Virus record (IMG/VR): IMGVR_UViG_3300037961_001273
Coordinates: 1 to 31,538 of that record
Strand: one strand, 5' to 3'
Source of the DNA: a virus
DNA: 31,538 nucleotides
Shown: one piece after another, positions 6,585 through 28,551 of the stretch
Numbering within the stretch: position 1 is the stretch's first letter
How the letters are laid out: the number at the start of each line of letters is the position of its first letter
Notes under the pieces: model-generated
What the model saw: only the letters and a program-made list of their open reading frames with translations
Told to the model about the DNA's origin: nothing
Database searches by the model: none
Made by a program: the position numbers and the translations under genes

Positions 6585-7184
6585 TTATGTTTTTACTGTT
6601 TCTAAATTAATTTTTTTTTCTAATAAATCTTCATATATTTTATTAGATTCATCAATCAAATCAGTAAAATTATTTTTTAATAAATCTAATTTAATTTTTT
6701 CTGTTTTAGTTTTTTCTTCAATAATATCATGTTTATTTATAGGAACAACATGGAACTCTTTTAAATTATAAGATGAAAAAGATTTTATAAGTTTATCAAT
6801 ATCTACATTTTCAAAATTTATATTTAATTTTGTAGCAATATTTTCTACTACTTTCATTGGCTTGGTTATAATGTCCTCAAAAGAATAAATATGTATTTTT
6901 TCTTTATTTTTTAAAACAGAATCAAGAAACATTTTGTAACTTTTAATAAGTTGTTCAATTTTAAAATCAGGTTGAATTATAATTTGAGATGAAACACTAT
7001 CTATTGGATTTCTTATACTTGTCATAAAAAAATTAAATTTATCTTTAGGAAAATTAAAAGATTCAGGATTATGTTTAAATTTATATCCCCAATATATAGT
7101 AGTATTAGGAAAAGCTTTTTTTAATAAACCTACTGCAAAATGATTACCTGACCGAAAAGTTGCGTCAAATAAAATAGATTTCAT
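6585..7184 (-). CDS. Sulfotransferase-like P-loop protein
   Basis: The 199-aa protein has two features of PAPS-dependent sulfotransferases. One is an N-terminal phosphosulfate-binding-like loop (ATFRSGNHFAVGLLKKAFP, residues about 9-27). The other is a 3'-phosphate-binding-like motif (TSIRNPIDSVSSQ, about 55-67), followed by a later IYSFEDIITKP segment resembling the YEDL element. It is shorter than typical sulfotransferases (250-300 aa) and the C-terminus is Lys-rich helix. The start at 7184 abuts the previous stop. Placed right after receptor-binding genes, it might sulfate a tail, capsid or host surface glycan. Assignment is by motif only. Confidence 0.5.
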   Translation of the reverse strand: MKSILFDATFRSGNHFAVGLLKKAFPNTTIYWGYKFKHNPESFNFPKDKFNFFMTSIRNPIDSVSSQIIIQPDFKIEQLIKSYKMFLDSVLKNKEKIHIYSFEDIITKPMKVVENIATKLNINFENVDIDKLIKSFSSYNLKEFHVVPINKHDIIEEKTKTEKIKLDLLKNNFTDLIDESNKIYEDLLEKKINLETVKT

Positions 7185-22217: not shown

Positions 22218-23619
22218 CAGGTGTTTGTCCTTCAACTTCAGTTGTTGTAAATTGACCTCTAATAGTTCTGGTGCTATCAATCTCATCATTTATAGTTTTG
22301 ATTAATTCGTTATCATCTATTACTGCTTCAGCGATTTGTTTATCAAGTTCTTTGTTAAAAGTTTCCGATCTAATGCCACTTGCTTTAGCCATTTGTAAAT
22401 ATTGTAAATCATTTGCCCAATCTCTTATATCGAACGTATCTGGGTAATCAACTTTACCATCCCAATCTTTATCTTGCCACTTAGCAAACAAAGACCAAAT
22501 GTGTTCTTCTGCATTTTCTAAATAATCTGCCTTTTCAGATAATCTTGCATTCAATAATTGGAACTCAGTTTGCAAAGCAATACCACTTGCTATTTGTCCT
22601 GATGTTGCTCTTACAGAACCCATGTGAGTAATTCTATCAATAGCATCAATTTTATTTTGAATACATTTCATTATACCATCTAAGTTTTGTCCACTTGGTT
22701 GTATAATGTAAGGTTTCAATGCAGGTTCAATATCTTCTGGCATTTCTATAACACTACCAGCACCAGCACTTGCTTCTACATTTGGTGTTTTAACTAAACT
22801 TGGGTGATTTGCTAATCTGATTAATTGTTCTTTTTCAGAGTAATCATTGTAAATAGATTGTTGCAAGTATGCAACATCTGCTAGATCACTTATGCCAATA
22901 GGACGTTTTGCACCTCTTAAATTATAAACATTGACTGCTGGTATCTTACGTAAAGGGTTTTGTATTTCTTCTAATAATCTTGCGTCGCCCTCAGCATATT
23001 CTTTTTCGTAATCTTCTATTTCATAAGTTGATATAGTTTCTTCTGTAAAAACTTTTACGATAGCTCTATCTTGATTTATGTCTTCAACGATTGCTAAATA
23101 ATCTAAATAAAATCTACCACTTGATGCTCTACGGTAATTCCAATTAACAACATTTTCTGGAGTGTAAATTGACATATATGGTCTAATGTCTTGTTCAAGT
23201 TCTTCTGCTCTTGTTTTTAAATTTGTTTGTGGCTTATCAATAACTACCCAACAGTTACCATAGATACTTGCATTCATTTGCACTTCTCTCATAACAGTAT
23301 CAAATGATCTACCATCTAAATCTGCATCAGCTAAAAAAGATTCTAATTGTTGATCGCCGTCTAACGAACCATAATCTCTAGTCGGAGGAACTCGCCATAA
23401 AAAACTTGTATAAATTTGCACAACATTTTTACAATGATTGTCAACAGGTGTGTGCCTTATTCTTTGATCGTATTCTTCTGGTGTTTCTAAAATATATCTA
23501 TGTAAGTAGTATCCGTTTCTATAATCGTTACCACCTAAATAACTACGAATGTAAAATTCCCAATTAGCAATATTGGCATGCCATAAAGGGTGTTTTGTTT
23601 TTAATGCCTTACTGTCCAT
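22195..23619 (-). CDS. Portal protein
   Basis: A 474-aa portal of the SPP1/HK97-like class, forming the dodecameric ring through which DNA enters the head. It has the expected N-terminal region (WEFYIRSYLGGNDYRNGYYL) and the portal wing/stem features (PVDNHCKNVVQIYTSFLWRV, ADVAYLQQSIYNDYSEKEQL, GSVRATSGQIASGIALQTEF). I prefer the ATG at 23619, which overlaps the terminase stop as TGATG and has AAGGTGGAG just upstream; an in-frame GTG at 23628 would add 3 residues. It directly follows the large terminase, as usual. Confidence 0.9.
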   Translation of the reverse strand: MDSKALKTKHPLWHANIANWEFYIRSYLGGNDYRNGYYLHRYILETPEEYDQRIRHTPVDNHCKNVVQIYTSFLWRVPPTRDYGSLDGDQQLESFLADADLDGRSFDTVMREVQMNASIYGNCWVVIDKPQTNLKTRAEELEQDIRPYMSIYTPENVVNWNYRRASSGRFYLDYLAIVEDINQDRAIVKVFTEETISTYEIEDYEKEYAEGDARLLEEIQNPLRKIPAVNVYNLRGAKRPIGISDLADVAYLQQSIYNDYSEKEQLIRLANHPSLVKTPNVEASAGAGSVIEMPEDIEPALKPYIIQPSGQNLDGIMKCIQNKIDAIDRITHMGSVRATSGQIASGIALQTEFQLLNARLSEKADYLENAEEHIWSLFAKWQDKDWDGKVDYPDTFDIRDWANDLQYLQMAKASGIRSETFNKELDKQIAEAVIDDNELIKTINDEIDSTRTIRGQFTTTEVEGQTPDGEETES

Positions 23620-24833
23620 CAACTCCACCTTGTTGGAGGGTTTGGTTTAAAATCCCTACGTAAAGGAAAATTATACTCTATCATGTAACCTAATGCATCG
23701 TTAAAGTGATCATAGCCACTATCTTTATCAGGCACATGAGTTCCCTCTTTGTATATTTGTCTTTCTATGCTTTTTATCACATTTTTACAAGAATTTAAAA
23801 TAAACAAACTATGCTGTCCTTTTGCATTTTTTAATTTTGCATTTACAGAATTTATTCTATCTCTGACTAAAGGTGCAGAGTTTTTACATTTAACTTCAAA
23901 ACCAGCATTTTTTAAAATTGCTAAATCTGTTAATCCACCAGCAGATGTTTTTCTTTGTCTAGCACTTGGGTCTGGATAAATCACAATATTTTTTTTATAC
24001 CTTTGTTTTATTTCATCAACCATTTCATTTGTATTTGATGACCATATTTGTATTTCATCTATAACATATATCTTATCTTTTTCTATAACGCAAACAACTG
24101 CACACATTGGATCAACATTAAAATCTAATCCGATATGCAATGTTAATATTTTATTTTTAAATCTTTCAATTAAATTTTTATTCCTATCAAAATTATAATA
24201 GATCATTCCTGAATAATTTACGAAAGATGCTAAATATTCTTGCTGAAAAGTACGTTCATCTAAATCATCTTTAGCTTGTTCTATTTCTTCTGGGGGAACT
24301 TGCATACCTTCTAACGTAGTGTATTTAAAACTTTTCCATTCTTTATCTGATTGTCCTTTAGTAAATAAATCATAAGACCAGTTACCGAAACCACGAGGAG
24401 TTCCACAAAATAGTGCATGCCCTTGCGTGTCACTCAAAGTTGGTCTTAATACTTCATACCATGCTACAGGATTAATGTCGCTAAATTCGTCCATCACTAA
24501 AAAATCTAAGCCAACACCTCTCAAGCTATTTTCATTATCTGCACCTCTCAATGATATTCTAGAATGATTACGTAAAGTAACTGTTAAATCTGAATTATTT
24601 ACATCTTCAATCCAATTATGAGCTCTGAGTCTTTGAACAAGTTCAGTCCAACATATTGATTTGGCTTGTCTATAAGTTGGTGCCACATACCATACCTTTT
24701 TGTTTGGAAACCTTGCAAATCTAGCAAGTTCATTAATTGCTAAAAAGGTTTTACCAAATCTTCTTCCGCTGATTAATATTCGGAATCTTGATTTATCATT
24801 GATTACTTCTGCCTGTGGCTTTGTATATGGCAT
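23619..24833 (-). CDS. terL: Terminase large subunit
   Basis: The 404-aa packaging motor has an ATPase with Walker A SGRRFGKT (residues 22-29) and Walker B FLVMDE (111-116, D115 and catalytic E116), plus the coupling region FCGTPRGFGNW. The C-terminal RNase-H-like nuclease shows D237 in HIGLDFNVDP, D288 in YPDPS and D375/D379 in GYDHFNDA. It cuts and pumps DNA into the procapsid. It starts one base after the small subunit stop. A headful or cos type cannot be decided by eye. Confidence 0.95.
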   Translation of the reverse strand: MPYTKPQAEVINDKSRFRILISGRRFGKTFLAINELARFARFPNKKVWYVAPTYRQAKSICWTELVQRLRAHNWIEDVNNSDLTVTLRNHSRISLRGADNENSLRGVGLDFLVMDEFSDINPVAWYEVLRPTLSDTQGHALFCGTPRGFGNWSYDLFTKGQSDKEWKSFKYTTLEGMQVPPEEIEQAKDDLDERTFQQEYLASFVNYSGMIYYNFDRNKNLIERFKNKILTLHIGLDFNVDPMCAVVCVIEKDKIYVIDEIQIWSSNTNEMVDEIKQRYKKNIVIYPDPSARQRKTSAGGLTDLAILKNAGFEVKCKNSAPLVRDRINSVNAKLKNAKGQHSLFILNSCKNVIKSIERQIYKEGTHVPDKDSGYDHFNDALGYMIEYNFPLRRDFKPNPPTRWS

Positions 24834-25166
24834 TTATGTAAGGTCTGGATTCCATGGTAATGGTTCGCTTTCCTCTGATGTTTCTACCTTATCTTTCATG
24901 CCGAGATAATTTTTTGAAAGCCATATCAACATGGTAGTATTACCACGCATTGCTTTATCAAACATGGCTCTTCTCAATGACCTTTTGCCCTTATCCCATC
25001 CCTTTTTTATAGGGGGGTCAAAATTACGTTTTAAAGTGCTTACTGACACACCACAAAAATTTGCAATCTCTTCTCTTGTACACTGCATAGTGGCTAATTT
25101 TTCTATATCTTCCAACGAATATGGGATATTTTTTTTTGGTCGCCCAACTTTTTTTTCTGTATCCAT
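24834..25166 (-). CDS. terS: Terminase small subunit
   Basis: The 110-aa protein begins with a basic VGRPKKNIPYS segment. It has a helix-turn-helix at about residues 17-48 (MQCTREEIANFCGVSVSTLK) and continues with SLRRAMFDKAMRGNTTMLIW and LSKNYLGMKDK, the typical close of small terminase subunits. It recognises phage DNA and recruits the large subunit encoded directly downstream. If the DNA is hypermodified by the neighbouring cassette, this protein must read modified packaging sites. Confidence 0.88.
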   Translation of the reverse strand: MDTEKKVGRPKKNIPYSLEDIEKLATMQCTREEIANFCGVSVSTLKRNFDPPIKKGWDKGKRSLRRAMFDKAMRGNTTMLIWLSKNYLGMKDKVETSEESEPLPWNPDLT

Positions 25167-25215: not shown

Positions 25216-25986
25216 TTACCTTTTTTTTCGCCTTTGGTCAATTAACCTTACTTCTGGATATTTACCTTTTGATTTTGTATTACGTTTGCAATACATGGGA
25301 AAAGTTTCTAACAACCATTTAACCGCAGTTTCTTCATATTCAACAGTTCTATAATTTTGTATGCCACCTTTTTCAGAATAATATTTAGTTTTTGGTGCTA
25401 CATAATTAAATCTAGTTACACCACCATCTGCTATGTAATATCTAATTGATCTTTCAAAATCTTCTTTACCATACTCTGGGTTTGTTGATACGTATGCTTT
25501 TTCATCATGATTATTTCGCCACCCATAAAAACAAGCAACAATGTATTTTAAGTTAAAAGTAACATTATTTTTCATAAAATATGGGTTAATTACAGGATTT
25601 ACTCCCCACATATCTATTTTTTTATCAAGTGATATTGCAAAAGCATTTTCTACAAACTCAGTCAAACTGTTTAATTGTATTGTATTTTTGTCATCAACTT
25701 TCATAGCAACTAAATCAATGTCATCATCAATACCCAATATAAGTTCATCTTCCTTATAATAATCTACAATAAAATTACGTTGTGTATTTACATGTTTTGT
25801 GTTGCTTACAATAATATTTACAGGATAATTTTTTAAATTTTCTCTATATGCTTGTTCTTCATTAGGATTACTTAAAAATATATCTACCTTTGACATATCA
25901 ATGTCAGTTTGTTTTAAATAATTAAGGGTTTTTTTTGTAATAGTATCTGCTCTTGATATTGATGGTATTGCCACTCTAAAATTCAT
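25216..25986 (-). CDS. TET-associated glycosyltransferase-type protein (TAGT-like)
   Basis: The 256-aa protein shows the GT-A-like layout of TET/JBP-associated glycosyltransferases: an N-terminal nucleotide-binding strand FRVAIPSISRADTITKKT, a middle segment VNIIVSNTKHVNTQRNFIVD, and an acidic metal-binding motif LILGIDDDIDL with D87, D88 and D89. The N-terminal IPSxxR and the QRNF element before DDD fit this family as described in phage base-modification operons. It would add a sugar to a hydroxymethylated base made by the dioxygenase encoded directly upstream, with which it overlaps as ATGA (25983-25986). Donor sugar and target base cannot be read from sequence. Confidence 0.78.
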   Translation of the reverse strand: MNFRVAIPSISRADTITKKTLNYLKQTDIDMSKVDIFLSNPNEEQAYRENLKNYPVNIIVSNTKHVNTQRNFIVDYYKEDELILGIDDDIDLVAMKVDDKNTIQLNSLTEFVENAFAISLDKKIDMWGVNPVINPYFMKNNVTFNLKYIVACFYGWRNNHDEKAYVSTNPEYGKEDFERSIRYYIADGGVTRFNYVAPKTKYYSEKGGIQNYRTVEYEETAVKWLLETFPMYCKRNTKSKGKYPEVRLIDQRRKKR

Positions 25987-26894
25987 TTATTTTTAATCCT
26001 TTCAAGTTCTTCCTCGGCACTACCACATTCTGTCATTTTTTCTCTAAAATATGCTACTATTGATATTCTTTCAGCATTGCCGATAGGTTTAATTTCAGTA
26101 TTTCCATGTAATTCGTGTACGTCAAAAAAGGCAACATCACAGCTTCTTACATCAACACCAATGCCATATTTAGGTATAATTGTATATGCACCCTTATAAT
26201 CCCCAGCTTGTAAAACTCCTAAATTACCAAATCCCTCCTTTAAATCACCAGCATCATAATGACAAGCAGTGCGAAAGTTTTTGTTTACTGTAATAGTAGT
26301 AAAAGGTGTTTGTGGTATTTTAAAATCTACATGAGTATTATCCCATGCTTTTTTTTGTGCTTCATATCTTTCTGGTATGTATCTTTTAAATAAATCGCCA
26401 ATATATTTAACGTAAGGTAGTGTTTTTTTATATTCATCAAAGTATTTGCGTGTAAACTCTGTTGTTCTACAATAAGGTATTCTTGAGTATCTATCAGCAT
26501 AACCTACTATTGAACTATATACTGCTTTTGCTTTTGGCGAGTTTGATAACGTACCATCTTTTTTAAGAGGATAAAATCTGTTGCCCTGTATTTTACCTAC
26601 CGTTAATCCGTCAATTTTATCTCCCATTTTGAGTTCTGGTGGTAAAGGACCTGCGGCTTGACCTCTGTTATTTGATAAATATGTTGCTTTTCTAAATGAT
26701 TTGTATGCTTCAAAAGCAATATTTTGTGGGATTATATTTTTTAAAAATACAAGTAATGTTTCGCCTTTTTCATTTTTGACTATGGTATCGCTATTTATTA
26801 CAGGATATTTCAAATAAGATTCATCTAAAAAATTACCATGTAATTGCCTTATTTGTTCGTCAGTAAGAACAGGATTAGCTTCTATTGTTCTCAT
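25983..26894 (-). CDS. TET/JBP-family 2-oxoglutarate/Fe(II) dioxygenase (predicted DNA base oxidase)
   Basis: The 303-aa protein has a TET/JBP-like catalytic core. The HxD pair is H212 and D214 in FRTACHYDAGDL, the distal metal ligand is H263 in FDVHELHGNTEI, and R276 in ERISIVAYFR would bind 2-oxoglutarate. The ELHGNT and RISIVAY segments parallel ELHATT and RISLVFY in animal TET2. Upstream features SNNRGQAAG, SIVGYADRYSR and PYCRTTEFT are typical of the phage branch. It would oxidise 5-methylcytosine or thymine in DNA. It overlaps ParB by 20 bases and the glycosyltransferase by 4, so they form one coupled cassette. Confidence 0.85.
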   Translation of the reverse strand: MRTIEANPVLTDEQIRQLHGNFLDESYLKYPVINSDTIVKNEKGETLLVFLKNIIPQNIAFEAYKSFRKATYLSNNRGQAAGPLPPELKMGDKIDGLTVGKIQGNRFYPLKKDGTLSNSPKAKAVYSSIVGYADRYSRIPYCRTTEFTRKYFDEYKKTLPYVKYIGDLFKRYIPERYEAQKKAWDNTHVDFKIPQTPFTTITVNKNFRTACHYDAGDLKEGFGNLGVLQAGDYKGAYTIIPKYGIGVDVRSCDVAFFDVHELHGNTEIKPIGNAERISIVAYFREKMTECGSAEEELERIKNK

Positions 26895-27483
26895 TTTCGA
26901 TAGCTTTATAAACAGTATCAGTCAAATTATTAGTGTTATATCTTTCTTGTAGGTTTTCTACCATAGCTTTGAATTTAGGCTCAGATTCAGAATTTAAAAA
27001 TAATTGAATCATTCTTACTTGTGAGGGTATAAAATCTTCAATATTTGTTTCATTATTTTCCATTCCTGATTGTTCTGGACTTACAAATAACGGATCATCT
27101 TGATTAAATATTCTGTTAAGTTCGTTTTGTTCAAATCCTAAACTATCCAAATCAAACTCTGATTTTTGCAAATCTAATAATTCAAGATTCAATAATTCGT
27201 TATCCCACTGTGACTCTTCTGCAACACGATTATCTGCAATACGATATGCTTTGACTTGGTTATCAGATAAATTATTTGCTATGATTACCGGGACTTCTTT
27301 CATGCCAAGTTTCATTGCGGCTTGATATCTTGTATGTCCTACAATAATAACATGATCTTTATCAACTACGATTGGTTGTTGAAATCCAAACTCTTTAATT
27401 GAACTTGCAACTTTATCAACATGTTGATTTTTTCTAGGATTTCTTGAGTAGGGTACAATCTTATTTATTTCAATATTTTGCAT
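26875..27483 (-). CDS. ParB-like (ParB/Srx fold) protein of a DNA-modification cassette
   Basis: The 202-aa protein has an N-terminal ParB/sulfiredoxin domain (about 1-95): INKIVPYSRNPRKN, SSIKEFGFQQPIVVD and VGHTRYQAAMKLG (GHTR at 49-52, as in ParB nucleotide-binding motifs). The following LSDNQVKAYRIADNRVAEES is what usually links this domain to a DNA methylase in phage fusions, but no methylase follows; the tail is a different segment (IPSQVRMIQLFLNSE). ParB-like proteins often accompany TET/JBP genes and may direct modification to sites. It starts 2 bases after the stop of the upstream replication gene. Confidence 0.85.
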   Translation of the reverse strand: MQNIEINKIVPYSRNPRKNQHVDKVASSIKEFGFQQPIVVDKDHVIIVGHTRYQAAMKLGMKEVPVIIANNLSDNQVKAYRIADNRVAEESQWDNELLNLELLDLQKSEFDLDSLGFEQNELNRIFNQDDPLFVSPEQSGMENNETNIEDFIPSQVRMIQLFLNSESEPKFKAMVENLQERYNTNNLTDTVYKAIENENNRS

Positions 27484-27485
27484 AA

Positions 27486-28328
27486 TTACCTATATTCGTT
27501 GACCATTCCTAAATCTTCAATGGCTTGTTGTTTTGTTATTTTACCTTTCTTAATACCGAGATCAATAACATCTTTATTTTTCAATGCCCAGTCTTTAATA
27601 AATCTTGTGACTTTTTTATCACGGATTGCATCAGTAAACATTTGTAACCTAGTTTCCTCTTGATTTACAACACCAAAACTTTGGTATTTATCTGGGATAT
27701 CTTCCTCCCATCTTTTATCTTTTAACCATTTACTAAAATGTGGAATAAATTTTTTTTCTTCTGTACTAGAGCATAATTTATTATATCCCATAACAATAGT
27801 ATCATCATCAATAGTTTTTTTTGCTATTTTATATTGCTCGTATGCTCTGAACTTACTGCCTCTTTTGTTATATAATCTTCCCCATACATTATCGAACTCC
27901 TTTGTATATATGGTTTGAGTAGAGGTAGGGGTAGGGGTAGAGGTAGGGGGGTTATCGCTGGGTTTTTTTGGACGACCACCTAATTTACCATTGGCTTTTG
28001 AACTATCAATTTTTTTAGTGATATACAAATATTCTTGAAGTTGTCTTTCGTTTTGCCAATGAGATTTATTTATTAATCTAAAATTTTCTCCTAAAACTTT
28101 TGCACAAGTTTTTTGCTCTTGTTCAGTAAATGCCATAGCAACTCTGTAAATTAATTCTTTATCATCTGGTATGCCTTTGCACCTTTTATTCCAATTCCAA
28201 CATAATAATCTTATATAAATTCCTAATGCCTCGTTGGTCATGTGCTGAGTACCAGCTATAAAATCTTCGGTAAATAAATACCATGCTTTGAGTTTTTCTT
28301 TAGGTTTCGAGCTCTCGTCTATAAACAT
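27486..28328 (-). CDS. DUF1376-type phage replication initiator-like protein
   Basis: The 280-aa protein has an N-terminal DUF1376-like domain (AWYLFTEDFIAGTQHMTNEA, then LGIYIRLLCWNWN and GIPDDKELIYRVAM), found in phage replication organiser proteins. A Ser/Thr/Pro hinge (about 127-140, encoded by five hexamer repeats) precedes a C-terminal helical domain with FIPHFSKWLKDKRWEEDI, typical of DnaD/helicase-loader-like C-termini. I prefer the ATG at 28328, preceded by GGAGG; an ATG at 28340 would add MEAK. No helicase or primase gene is visible, so it likely recruits host replisome parts to an origin. Confidence 0.78.
   Translation of the reverse strand: MFIDESSKPKEKLKAWYLFTEDFIAGTQHMTNEALGIYIRLLCWNWNKRCKGIPDDKELIYRVAMAFTEQEQKTCAKVLGENFRLINKSHWQNERQLQEYLYITKKIDSSKANGKLGGRPKKPSDNPPTSTPTPTSTQTIYTKEFDNVWGRLYNKRGSKFRAYEQYKIAKKTIDDDTIVMGYNKLCSSTEEKKFIPHFSKWLKDKRWEEDIPDKYQSFGVVNQEETRLQMFTDAIRDKKVTRFIKDWALKNKDVIDLGIKKGKITKQQAIEDLGMVNEYR
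27919..27948 (-). repeat. Five tandem hexamers (GTAGGG/GTAGAG) coding a Ser/Thr/Pro hinge
   Basis: On the plus strand the units read GTAGAG, GTAGGG, GTAGGG, GTAGAG, GTAGGG. In the gene's frame they encode alternating Thr with Pro or Ser between the two domains of the replication protein. Unit changes by slippage keep the frame and only alter hinge length. Confidence 0.85.
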
Positions 28329-28551
28329 CTTTGCCTCCATTTTTTATTTGTTTATAAAATTTGACTGTGTATTCATCAACTTTTAAATCAAAATCATCTT
28401 CTGAGAAATCATTATTAGTTAAAAATTCATCAGTAACTTTTGTTATTGCTTTGTTTTGTGCCTTAACCCAACAACCAATAAATTGGTCAGCTTCCTTTGG
28501 GTCTTTTGGAACTACAAATGTATGATTGTGGACTTTGACGACGTGGGACAT
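28300..28551 (-). CDS. Hypothetical protein, 83 aa
   Basis: Unrecognised protein with a short beta front (SHVVKVHNHTFVVPKDPKEA) and a helical acidic rest (VTDEFLTNNDFSEDDFDL). No metal-binding, signal or membrane feature. It overlaps the nuclease gene upstream by 65 bases and the replication gene downstream by 29 bases, so it is a coupled member of the replication module. The ATG at 28551 lacks a clear Shine-Dalgarno, but no other start is present in the frame. Confidence 0.6.
   Translation of the reverse strand: MSHVVKVHNHTFVVPKDPKEADQFIGCWVKAQNKAITKVTDEFLTNNDFSEDDFDLKVDEYTVKFYKQIKNGGKDVYRRELET

Follow-up and report, generated by a model that had tools for sequence, protein, structure and literature searches.

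To our knowledge, the characterised phage TETs oxidise 5-methylcytosine made by a phage C5-methyltransferase, and Burke et al. (cited in PMC11404850) reportedly described hypermodification by such TET plus C5-methyltransferase systems in 2021. In these systems, exemplified by Melnitz, a TET/JBP enzyme is followed by tailoring enzymes, as in the locus described here, and Melnitz has a kinase of the type found in the capping slot of some relatives. The window (the whole stretch of 31,538 bases analysed here), in contrast, lacks a C5-methyltransferase, contains a ParB-fold protein and has a cap that is exchanged as a single gene. The kinetoplastid base J pathway (JBP1/2 and the J glucosyltransferase) follows the logic that we propose, thymine hydroxylation and then glycosylation, but the window encodes a different glycosyltransferase and a ParB partner. 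T4 and M6-like phages hydroxymethylate at the nucleotide level with a thymidylate-synthase homologue. Thymidine hypermodification of the M6/ViI type shares 5-hydroxymethyluracil as the presumed intermediate, and kinase and ADDT occur in TET operons; there, however, 5-hydroxymethyluracil comes from dUMP via that homologue, which the window lacks.

ParB-fused phage DNA methyltransferases, ParBc beside CmoX (PMC12783734) and DpdB/ParB beside DpdA likewise combine a ParB N-domain with a DNA-modifying enzyme, whereas the ParB of the window is a separate protein whose tail is specific to TET islands. The actinophage ParB-TET-(ADDT)-kinase operons of CaiB, Acadian, Zemanar and Altadena resemble the window in ParB, TET and tailoring enzymes and have neither a C5-methyltransferase nor a thymidylate-synthase homologue; those of CaiB, Acadian and Zemanar also lie directly before the terminase genes, as in the window. 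Acadian and Altadena have a PIG-L deacetylase, and CaiB and Zemanar have, in place of the window's lone glycosyltransferase, ADDT (PF18724, the thymidine-hypermodification transferase family) with a P-loop kinase. For actinophages, a ParB-TET arrangement ahead of the terminase genes had thus been recorded earlier: in Gordonia phage CaiB, ParB-TET-ADDT-kinase stands ahead of terminase, as its authors noted, referring to Iyer 2013 (PMC9302106).

The cassette and its genome

The window covers 31,538 of the 31,905 bases of an IMG/VR record (G000), the rest being an N gap and 345 bases. These 345 bases are 92% identical to the record's own start, which reflects either terminal redundancy or an overlap of the scaffolded ends; the genome unit is therefore essentially complete, as had been supposed from the sequence. 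This is a small marine virus of bacteria whose host is probably SAR11, a host assignment taken from the related isolate HTVC112P (32,478 bases), whose layout matches that of the window. The features discussed below are these:

23619..24833, minus strand: terminase large subunit (PF17289/PF03237), the anchor for finding relatives
24834..25166, minus strand: terminase small subunit (phrog_309 1.2e-11), right island border
25216..25986, minus strand: TET-associated glycosyltransferase (TAGT), 256 aa (PF20691 5.1e-13), in the exchangeable capping slot; DNA alignments with relatives stop at 25982 and start again at 25216
25720..25728, minus strand: nucleotide-sugar motif DDD87-89 in the TAGT, with D87 and D88 unchanged across 18 TAGTs
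25983..26894, minus strand: TET/JBP-family Fe(II)/2OG dioxygenase, 303 aa (PF12851 7.6e-25; predicted fold NgTet1/TET2)
26253..26261, minus strand: HxD metal-binding motif H212-Y-D214 of the dioxygenase, invariant in 30 relatives
26875..27483, minus strand: ParB-fold protein, 202 aa, with N-domain (aa 1-130), flexible linker and C-terminal tail (PF02195 8.8e-12; model matches Noc/ParB CTP-binding domains)
26881..27012, minus strand: ParB C-terminal tail, aa 158-201, RMIQLF...LTDTVYKA (39/40 TET-linked ParBs, 0/60 others)
27486..28340, minus strand: primosomal-type protein (DUF1376; PF07120 1.3e-10, phrog_9327), left island border, conserved in relatives

ParB and TET overlap by 20 bases and TET and glycosyltransferase by 4, all on the minus strand. 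The ParB_N, Tet_JBP and TAGT matches exceed the curated Pfam cut-offs, at 87.5 bits against 34.9 for the dioxygenase and 49.9 against 27.5 for the glycosyltransferase, and the original prediction of three coupled genes for a ParB, a TET/JBP enzyme and a TAGT holds. Elsewhere in the window, a Sulfotransferase-domain gene (6585-7184, minus strand; PF00685 8e-8) lies amid tail-fibre genes; its product may act on a component of the surface or of the fibres.

The four dioxygenase residues singled out beforehand, H212, D214, H263 (the Fe(II) ligands, HxD...H) and R276 (the 2OG arginine), are invariant in an alignment of 30 relatives. Since a PDB sequence search with the TET gave no match, folds had to be compared. 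The AlphaFold2 model (pLDDT 79.8) finds NgTet1 (Foldseek E 5.5e-12; VIA-align Z 19.5), TET2 (Z 19.2), CcTet and CMD1 as its top PDB matches, with the AlkB group next in the VIA-align ranking at Z 13. On this model, the 303-aa protein is predicted to have the TET-type double-stranded beta-helix fold. Membership in another 2OG oxygenase family had been named beforehand as one way in which the assignment could fail; prolyl-hydroxylase or AlkB identity is ruled out by the Pfam matches and the fold ranking. A peptide-pattern search of 84,980 bacterial and archaeal genomes found no relative of this TET.

We also considered D217, three residues after the HxD aspartate and aligned with NgTet1 D234, as a discriminator between cytosine and thymine; it does not discriminate, because the residue is D in both the window TET and the C5-methyltransferase-linked TET of Melnitz and N in actinophages and human TET2. 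The alanine mutant of NgTet1 D234 is inactive (PMC11404850). In public annotation, the TET/JBP proteins of HTVC112P, Cr30, DLP6, S-CBWM1 and the Acadian group appear as SNF2 DNA repair, DnaJ chaperone or queuine tRNA-ribosyltransferase/DpdA, and such misannotations hide TET/JBP systems.

The capping slot and the surrounding island

Gene order was compared across 80 IMG/VR loci that encode relatives of the dioxygenase. Small-phage members have the common order primosomal gene, ParB, TET, slot and terminase, in which the slot is occupied by one or other of two TAGT types, by an FkbM methyltransferase (in HTVC112P and elsewhere), by a P-loop kinase or by a GT-B-like transferase, and in some cases by combinations that include a small methyltransferase. 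The flanks of exchanged slots are 80-99% identical between relatives. Compared with one relative (L009), the window is 81% identical on both sides and the alignment breaks from 25982 to 25216, exactly the glycosyltransferase gene; two others (L007, L013) have one additional gene between TET and glycosyltransferase in the DNA alignment; and the two flanks that enclose different caps in L232 and L235 are 94.5 and 95.9% identical. Caps change at least 12 times on a tree of 35 TETs. These alignments mark the gene that follows TET as an exchangeable slot for the cap, with single-gene swaps.

The glycosyltransferase motif reported earlier as D87-D89 is in fact DDD87-89; D87 and D88 are invariant in 18/18 relatives, and the third position is D or N. 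A role for the slot kinase on hydroxymethylated bases is supported by its homology to the kinases in the Melnitz TET operon and in Cr30. In S-CBWM1, P12024L and C48C1, TAGT or sugar-nucleotide genes adjoin the TET. A common module of TET, GATase_6, GNAT-like and ~330-aa proteins occurs in L030, L343 and L346 and in the T4-like L060-L080, followed by a kinase in the small phages L343 and L346. Its presence in both small and large T4-like phages suggests transfer of the whole module, and its GATase_6 amidotransferase may add nitrogen to the base.

Relatives found from the terminase (TerL 68-99% identical) gave 100 loci, which are non-independent and include at least four contigs counted twice (e.g., L002/L213, L014/L219). 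In the island position, between the primosomal gene and terminase, ParB is fused to an N6/N4 methyltransferase at 18 loci or stands beside Mom (11 loci), a TAGT without TET (13), a C5-methyltransferase plus a methyltransferase (4) or 7-deazaguanine genes (5). The last are a DpdA-like gene with a YhhQ/Vut_1 transporter, or QueC with a DpdA-like gene and DUF5591, the DpdA-like call being a reading of sequence and neighbours with no Pfam match. Different chemistries are found in phages whose TerL proteins are 97-99% identical, both in L273 (7-deazaguanine) and L281 (C5-methyltransferase) and in HTVC112P (TET and FkbM) and L349 (Mom). No island holds both a TET and a C5-methyltransferase (53 TET loci, 7 C5-methyltransferase loci), which is partly expected if each island holds one module. 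These comparisons mark the locus as a ParB-centred modification island, in which whole chemistries are swapped beside a constant ParB; the original prediction had overlooked both this and the exchangeable third gene. In the literature searched we found neither the pelagiphage island nor its pattern of exchange nor the tail coupling described below.

Some islands (G081, comprising L266, L425 and L426, with L223, L240, L268 and L341) pair ParB with a strong TAGT (PF20691 7e-44 in L240), and neither a TET nor a thymidylate-synthase homologue was found in them. The genes after ParB in L227 encode a radical SAM-SPASM protein, a methyltransferase and a TAGT, possibly a further modification chemistry. 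Between TerS and TerL, L237-L243 and L254 encode a ~195-aa protein with no Pfam match and an HPPCT motif resembling C5-methyltransferases.

In Bclasvirinae mycobacteriophages, ParB is gene 1 and is followed by the module and then terminase. The module is DpdA-QueC-QueD-QueE-FolE in Faze9, TET-TAGT-PIG-L-kinase in Acadian and TET-ADDT-kinase in Zemanar, and Gadjet has a PAPS-reductase-like gene. Faze9 was used in place of Rosebush, the two being one species; Rosebush DNA carries preQ0 at 28% of Gs (PMC6884629). Among the loci analysed, the actinophages L427-L429, L089 and L431 show this layout, with TET, DpdA or PAPS-reductase-like modules. Actinophage TETs were not retrieved by tblastn with the window TET. 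The suggestion that modification is linked to packaging gains only positional support, from the recurrence of the site before terminase in mycobacteriophages, but in S-CBWM1, P12024L, DLP6 and Cr30 the TET lies away from terminase.

The ParB N-domain is conserved across the island modules, with GHxR invariant, and its modelled fold resembles the CTP-binding domain of Noc/ParB, the best PDB matches. Most of its closest relatives in named phages carry a DNA-methylase annotation or are fused to such an enzyme, and no ParA domain was found among the window ORFs scanned, which sets the protein apart from ParABS systems. Beyond a low-confidence linker, the tail is predicted to form a separate helical module. 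Its RM-x-QLF...LTDTV pattern is present in 39 of 40 TET-linked ParBs (the remaining one is a truncated ORF) and in 0 of 60 other ParBs of the lineage; a different tail is found in 11 of 13 TAGT-only islands, and a CxxC tail accompanies Mom, C5-methyltransferase and ParB-only islands. Enzyme-specific tails fit tail-mediated docking of the partner enzyme. We treat docking as a putative role, because physical linkage of a tail and the next gene in recombination could also produce this pattern.

Candidate substrates

We consider DNA-base hypermodification very probable as the function of the cassette and read the three genes as a post-replicative operon for it. In the mechanism we propose, ParB would be the DNA-binding and targeting subunit, loading on phage DNA and recruiting and docking the dioxygenase via its C-terminal tail. 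The TET/JBP enzyme would hydroxylate a pyrimidine of the phage DNA at its 5-methyl group, most likely converting thymine to 5-hydroxymethyluracil, and the TAGT, by the habits of its family, would cap the hydroxyl with sugar from a host NDP-sugar, relatives using another sugar, a methyl or a phosphate instead. DNA modified in this way would block host restriction.

Thymine, host-made 5-methylcytosine and the product of an unrecognised methylase had been put forward as substrates. Thymine is the best supported of the three, and we give it roughly even chances, firstly because the phage encodes no enzyme that makes 5-methylcytosine. PF00145 is absent from the full 31,905-base record and no base methylase was found among the window's larger ORFs, all of them Pfam-scanned, so the reported lack of a cytosine methyltransferase stands; an unrecognised methylase within this genome was rejected as unlikely, no sizeable ORF being left. 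PF00145 is also absent from HTVC112P and 23 related records, from nine complete named genomes in five phage groups (P12024L, DLP6, Cr30, S-CBWM1, C48C1, Altadena, Acadian, CaiB and Zemanar) and from eight further TET records, two of them 33 kb. Among about 40 TET-bearing phage records the one exception is Melnitz, our positive control, where the methylase adjoins the TET; because PF00145 was detected there and in non-TET relatives, the test works. Many IMG/VR records are fragmentary; the result rests chiefly on contigs of 30-34 kb and on the complete genomes of named phages.

Thymine is favoured, secondly, because the phage has no nucleotide-level hydroxymethylase and, thirdly, because TET operons hold ADDT and kinase without the thymidylate-synthase homologue that normally supplies 5-hydroxymethyluracil. 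Against thymine stand the C5-methyltransferases of some SAR11 genomes, detailed below, and the distance between the two TET groups, for the argument leans on TETs of distant actinophages. Restriction resistance is listed for the DNA of DLP6 (PMC8228603); the enzymes used included some with G+C-only sites, the outcome per enzyme not being stated (PMC5349666). This resistance is suggestive evidence against thymine, as it would better fit modified C or G, but DLP6 may have other modifications.

Of the alternatives, the one that survives best, though we consider it unlikely, is that the dioxygenase acts on 5-methylcytosine placed by a host C5-methyltransferase at restriction-modification sites and that the glycosyltransferase caps 5-hydroxymethylcytosine there. 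PF00145 is above cut-off in 8 of 50 SAR11 genomes, a lower bound as the genomes are incomplete, and the nearest folds, NgTet1, TET2 and CMD1, were solved with 5-methylcytosine DNA. Most of the sampled SAR11 genomes nevertheless lack PF00145, the cassette is conserved over many phages and hosts, and TET and non-TET relatives do not differ as expected in CpG (p=0.5) or other dinucleotides. Dinucleotide and palindrome statistics showed no difference between TET and non-TET relatives for CpG, TpA and others; weak differences in ApC and GpA (p 0.001 and 0.007, uncorrected) were left out of the argument.

Modification of host DNA, RNA or a surface glycan in place of phage DNA seems to us improbable. 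TAGTs do fall within the broad GT-A superfamily and isolated phage glycosyltransferase genes often act on glycans, but the strict coupling to TET and ParB, and exchange at the same site with proven DNA-modification systems (Mom, DpdA/QueC, DNA methyltransferases), speak for a DNA target. Very little probability attaches to another methylated base such as N6-methyladenine, with the cap stabilising the hydroxymethyl product: the crystal structure of CcTet, one of the close matches to the model, contains 6mA-DNA, and adenine chemistry occurs in other islands of the lineage (Mom, N6/N4 methyltransferase), yet no adenine methylase was found in the window ORFs scanned, and N6-hydroxymethyladenine is unstable. 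The idea that a thymidylate-synthase homologue hydroxymethylates nucleotides and the TET does something else is equally far-fetched, as PF00303, though present with a TET in Cr30, is absent from this genome, HTVC112P, near-complete relatives and the other named TET phages tested.

Modification from swappable parts

Returning to thymine, we tentatively suggest a wider reading, possible although we would not bet on it, in which ParB is a general targeting subunit serving interchangeable chemistries at one position, with one conserved N-domain and C-terminal tails specific to each enzyme. Its TET version would hydroxylate plain thymine, giving SAR11 phages a pathway like that of base J, in which the cap can be exchanged between sugar, methyl and phosphate.

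That a cassette without a C5-methyltransferase occurs in phage groups unrelated to one another suggests that viruses hydroxylate thymine by a route other than that through thymidylate synthase. Cultured phages are at hand for testing it: HTVC112P, which grows on Pelagibacter, and Acadian, Zemanar and CaiB, whose hosts are laboratory actinobacteria. Near-identical phages differ in their caps, and entire chemistries change next to a ParB that stays constant, which indicates that DNA modification evolves as swappable parts, as would be expected if the defences of hosts target particular modifications. What ParB does beside the DNA-modifying enzymes of phages has been stated to be unknown (PMC12783734), and the island system makes its role there directly testable.
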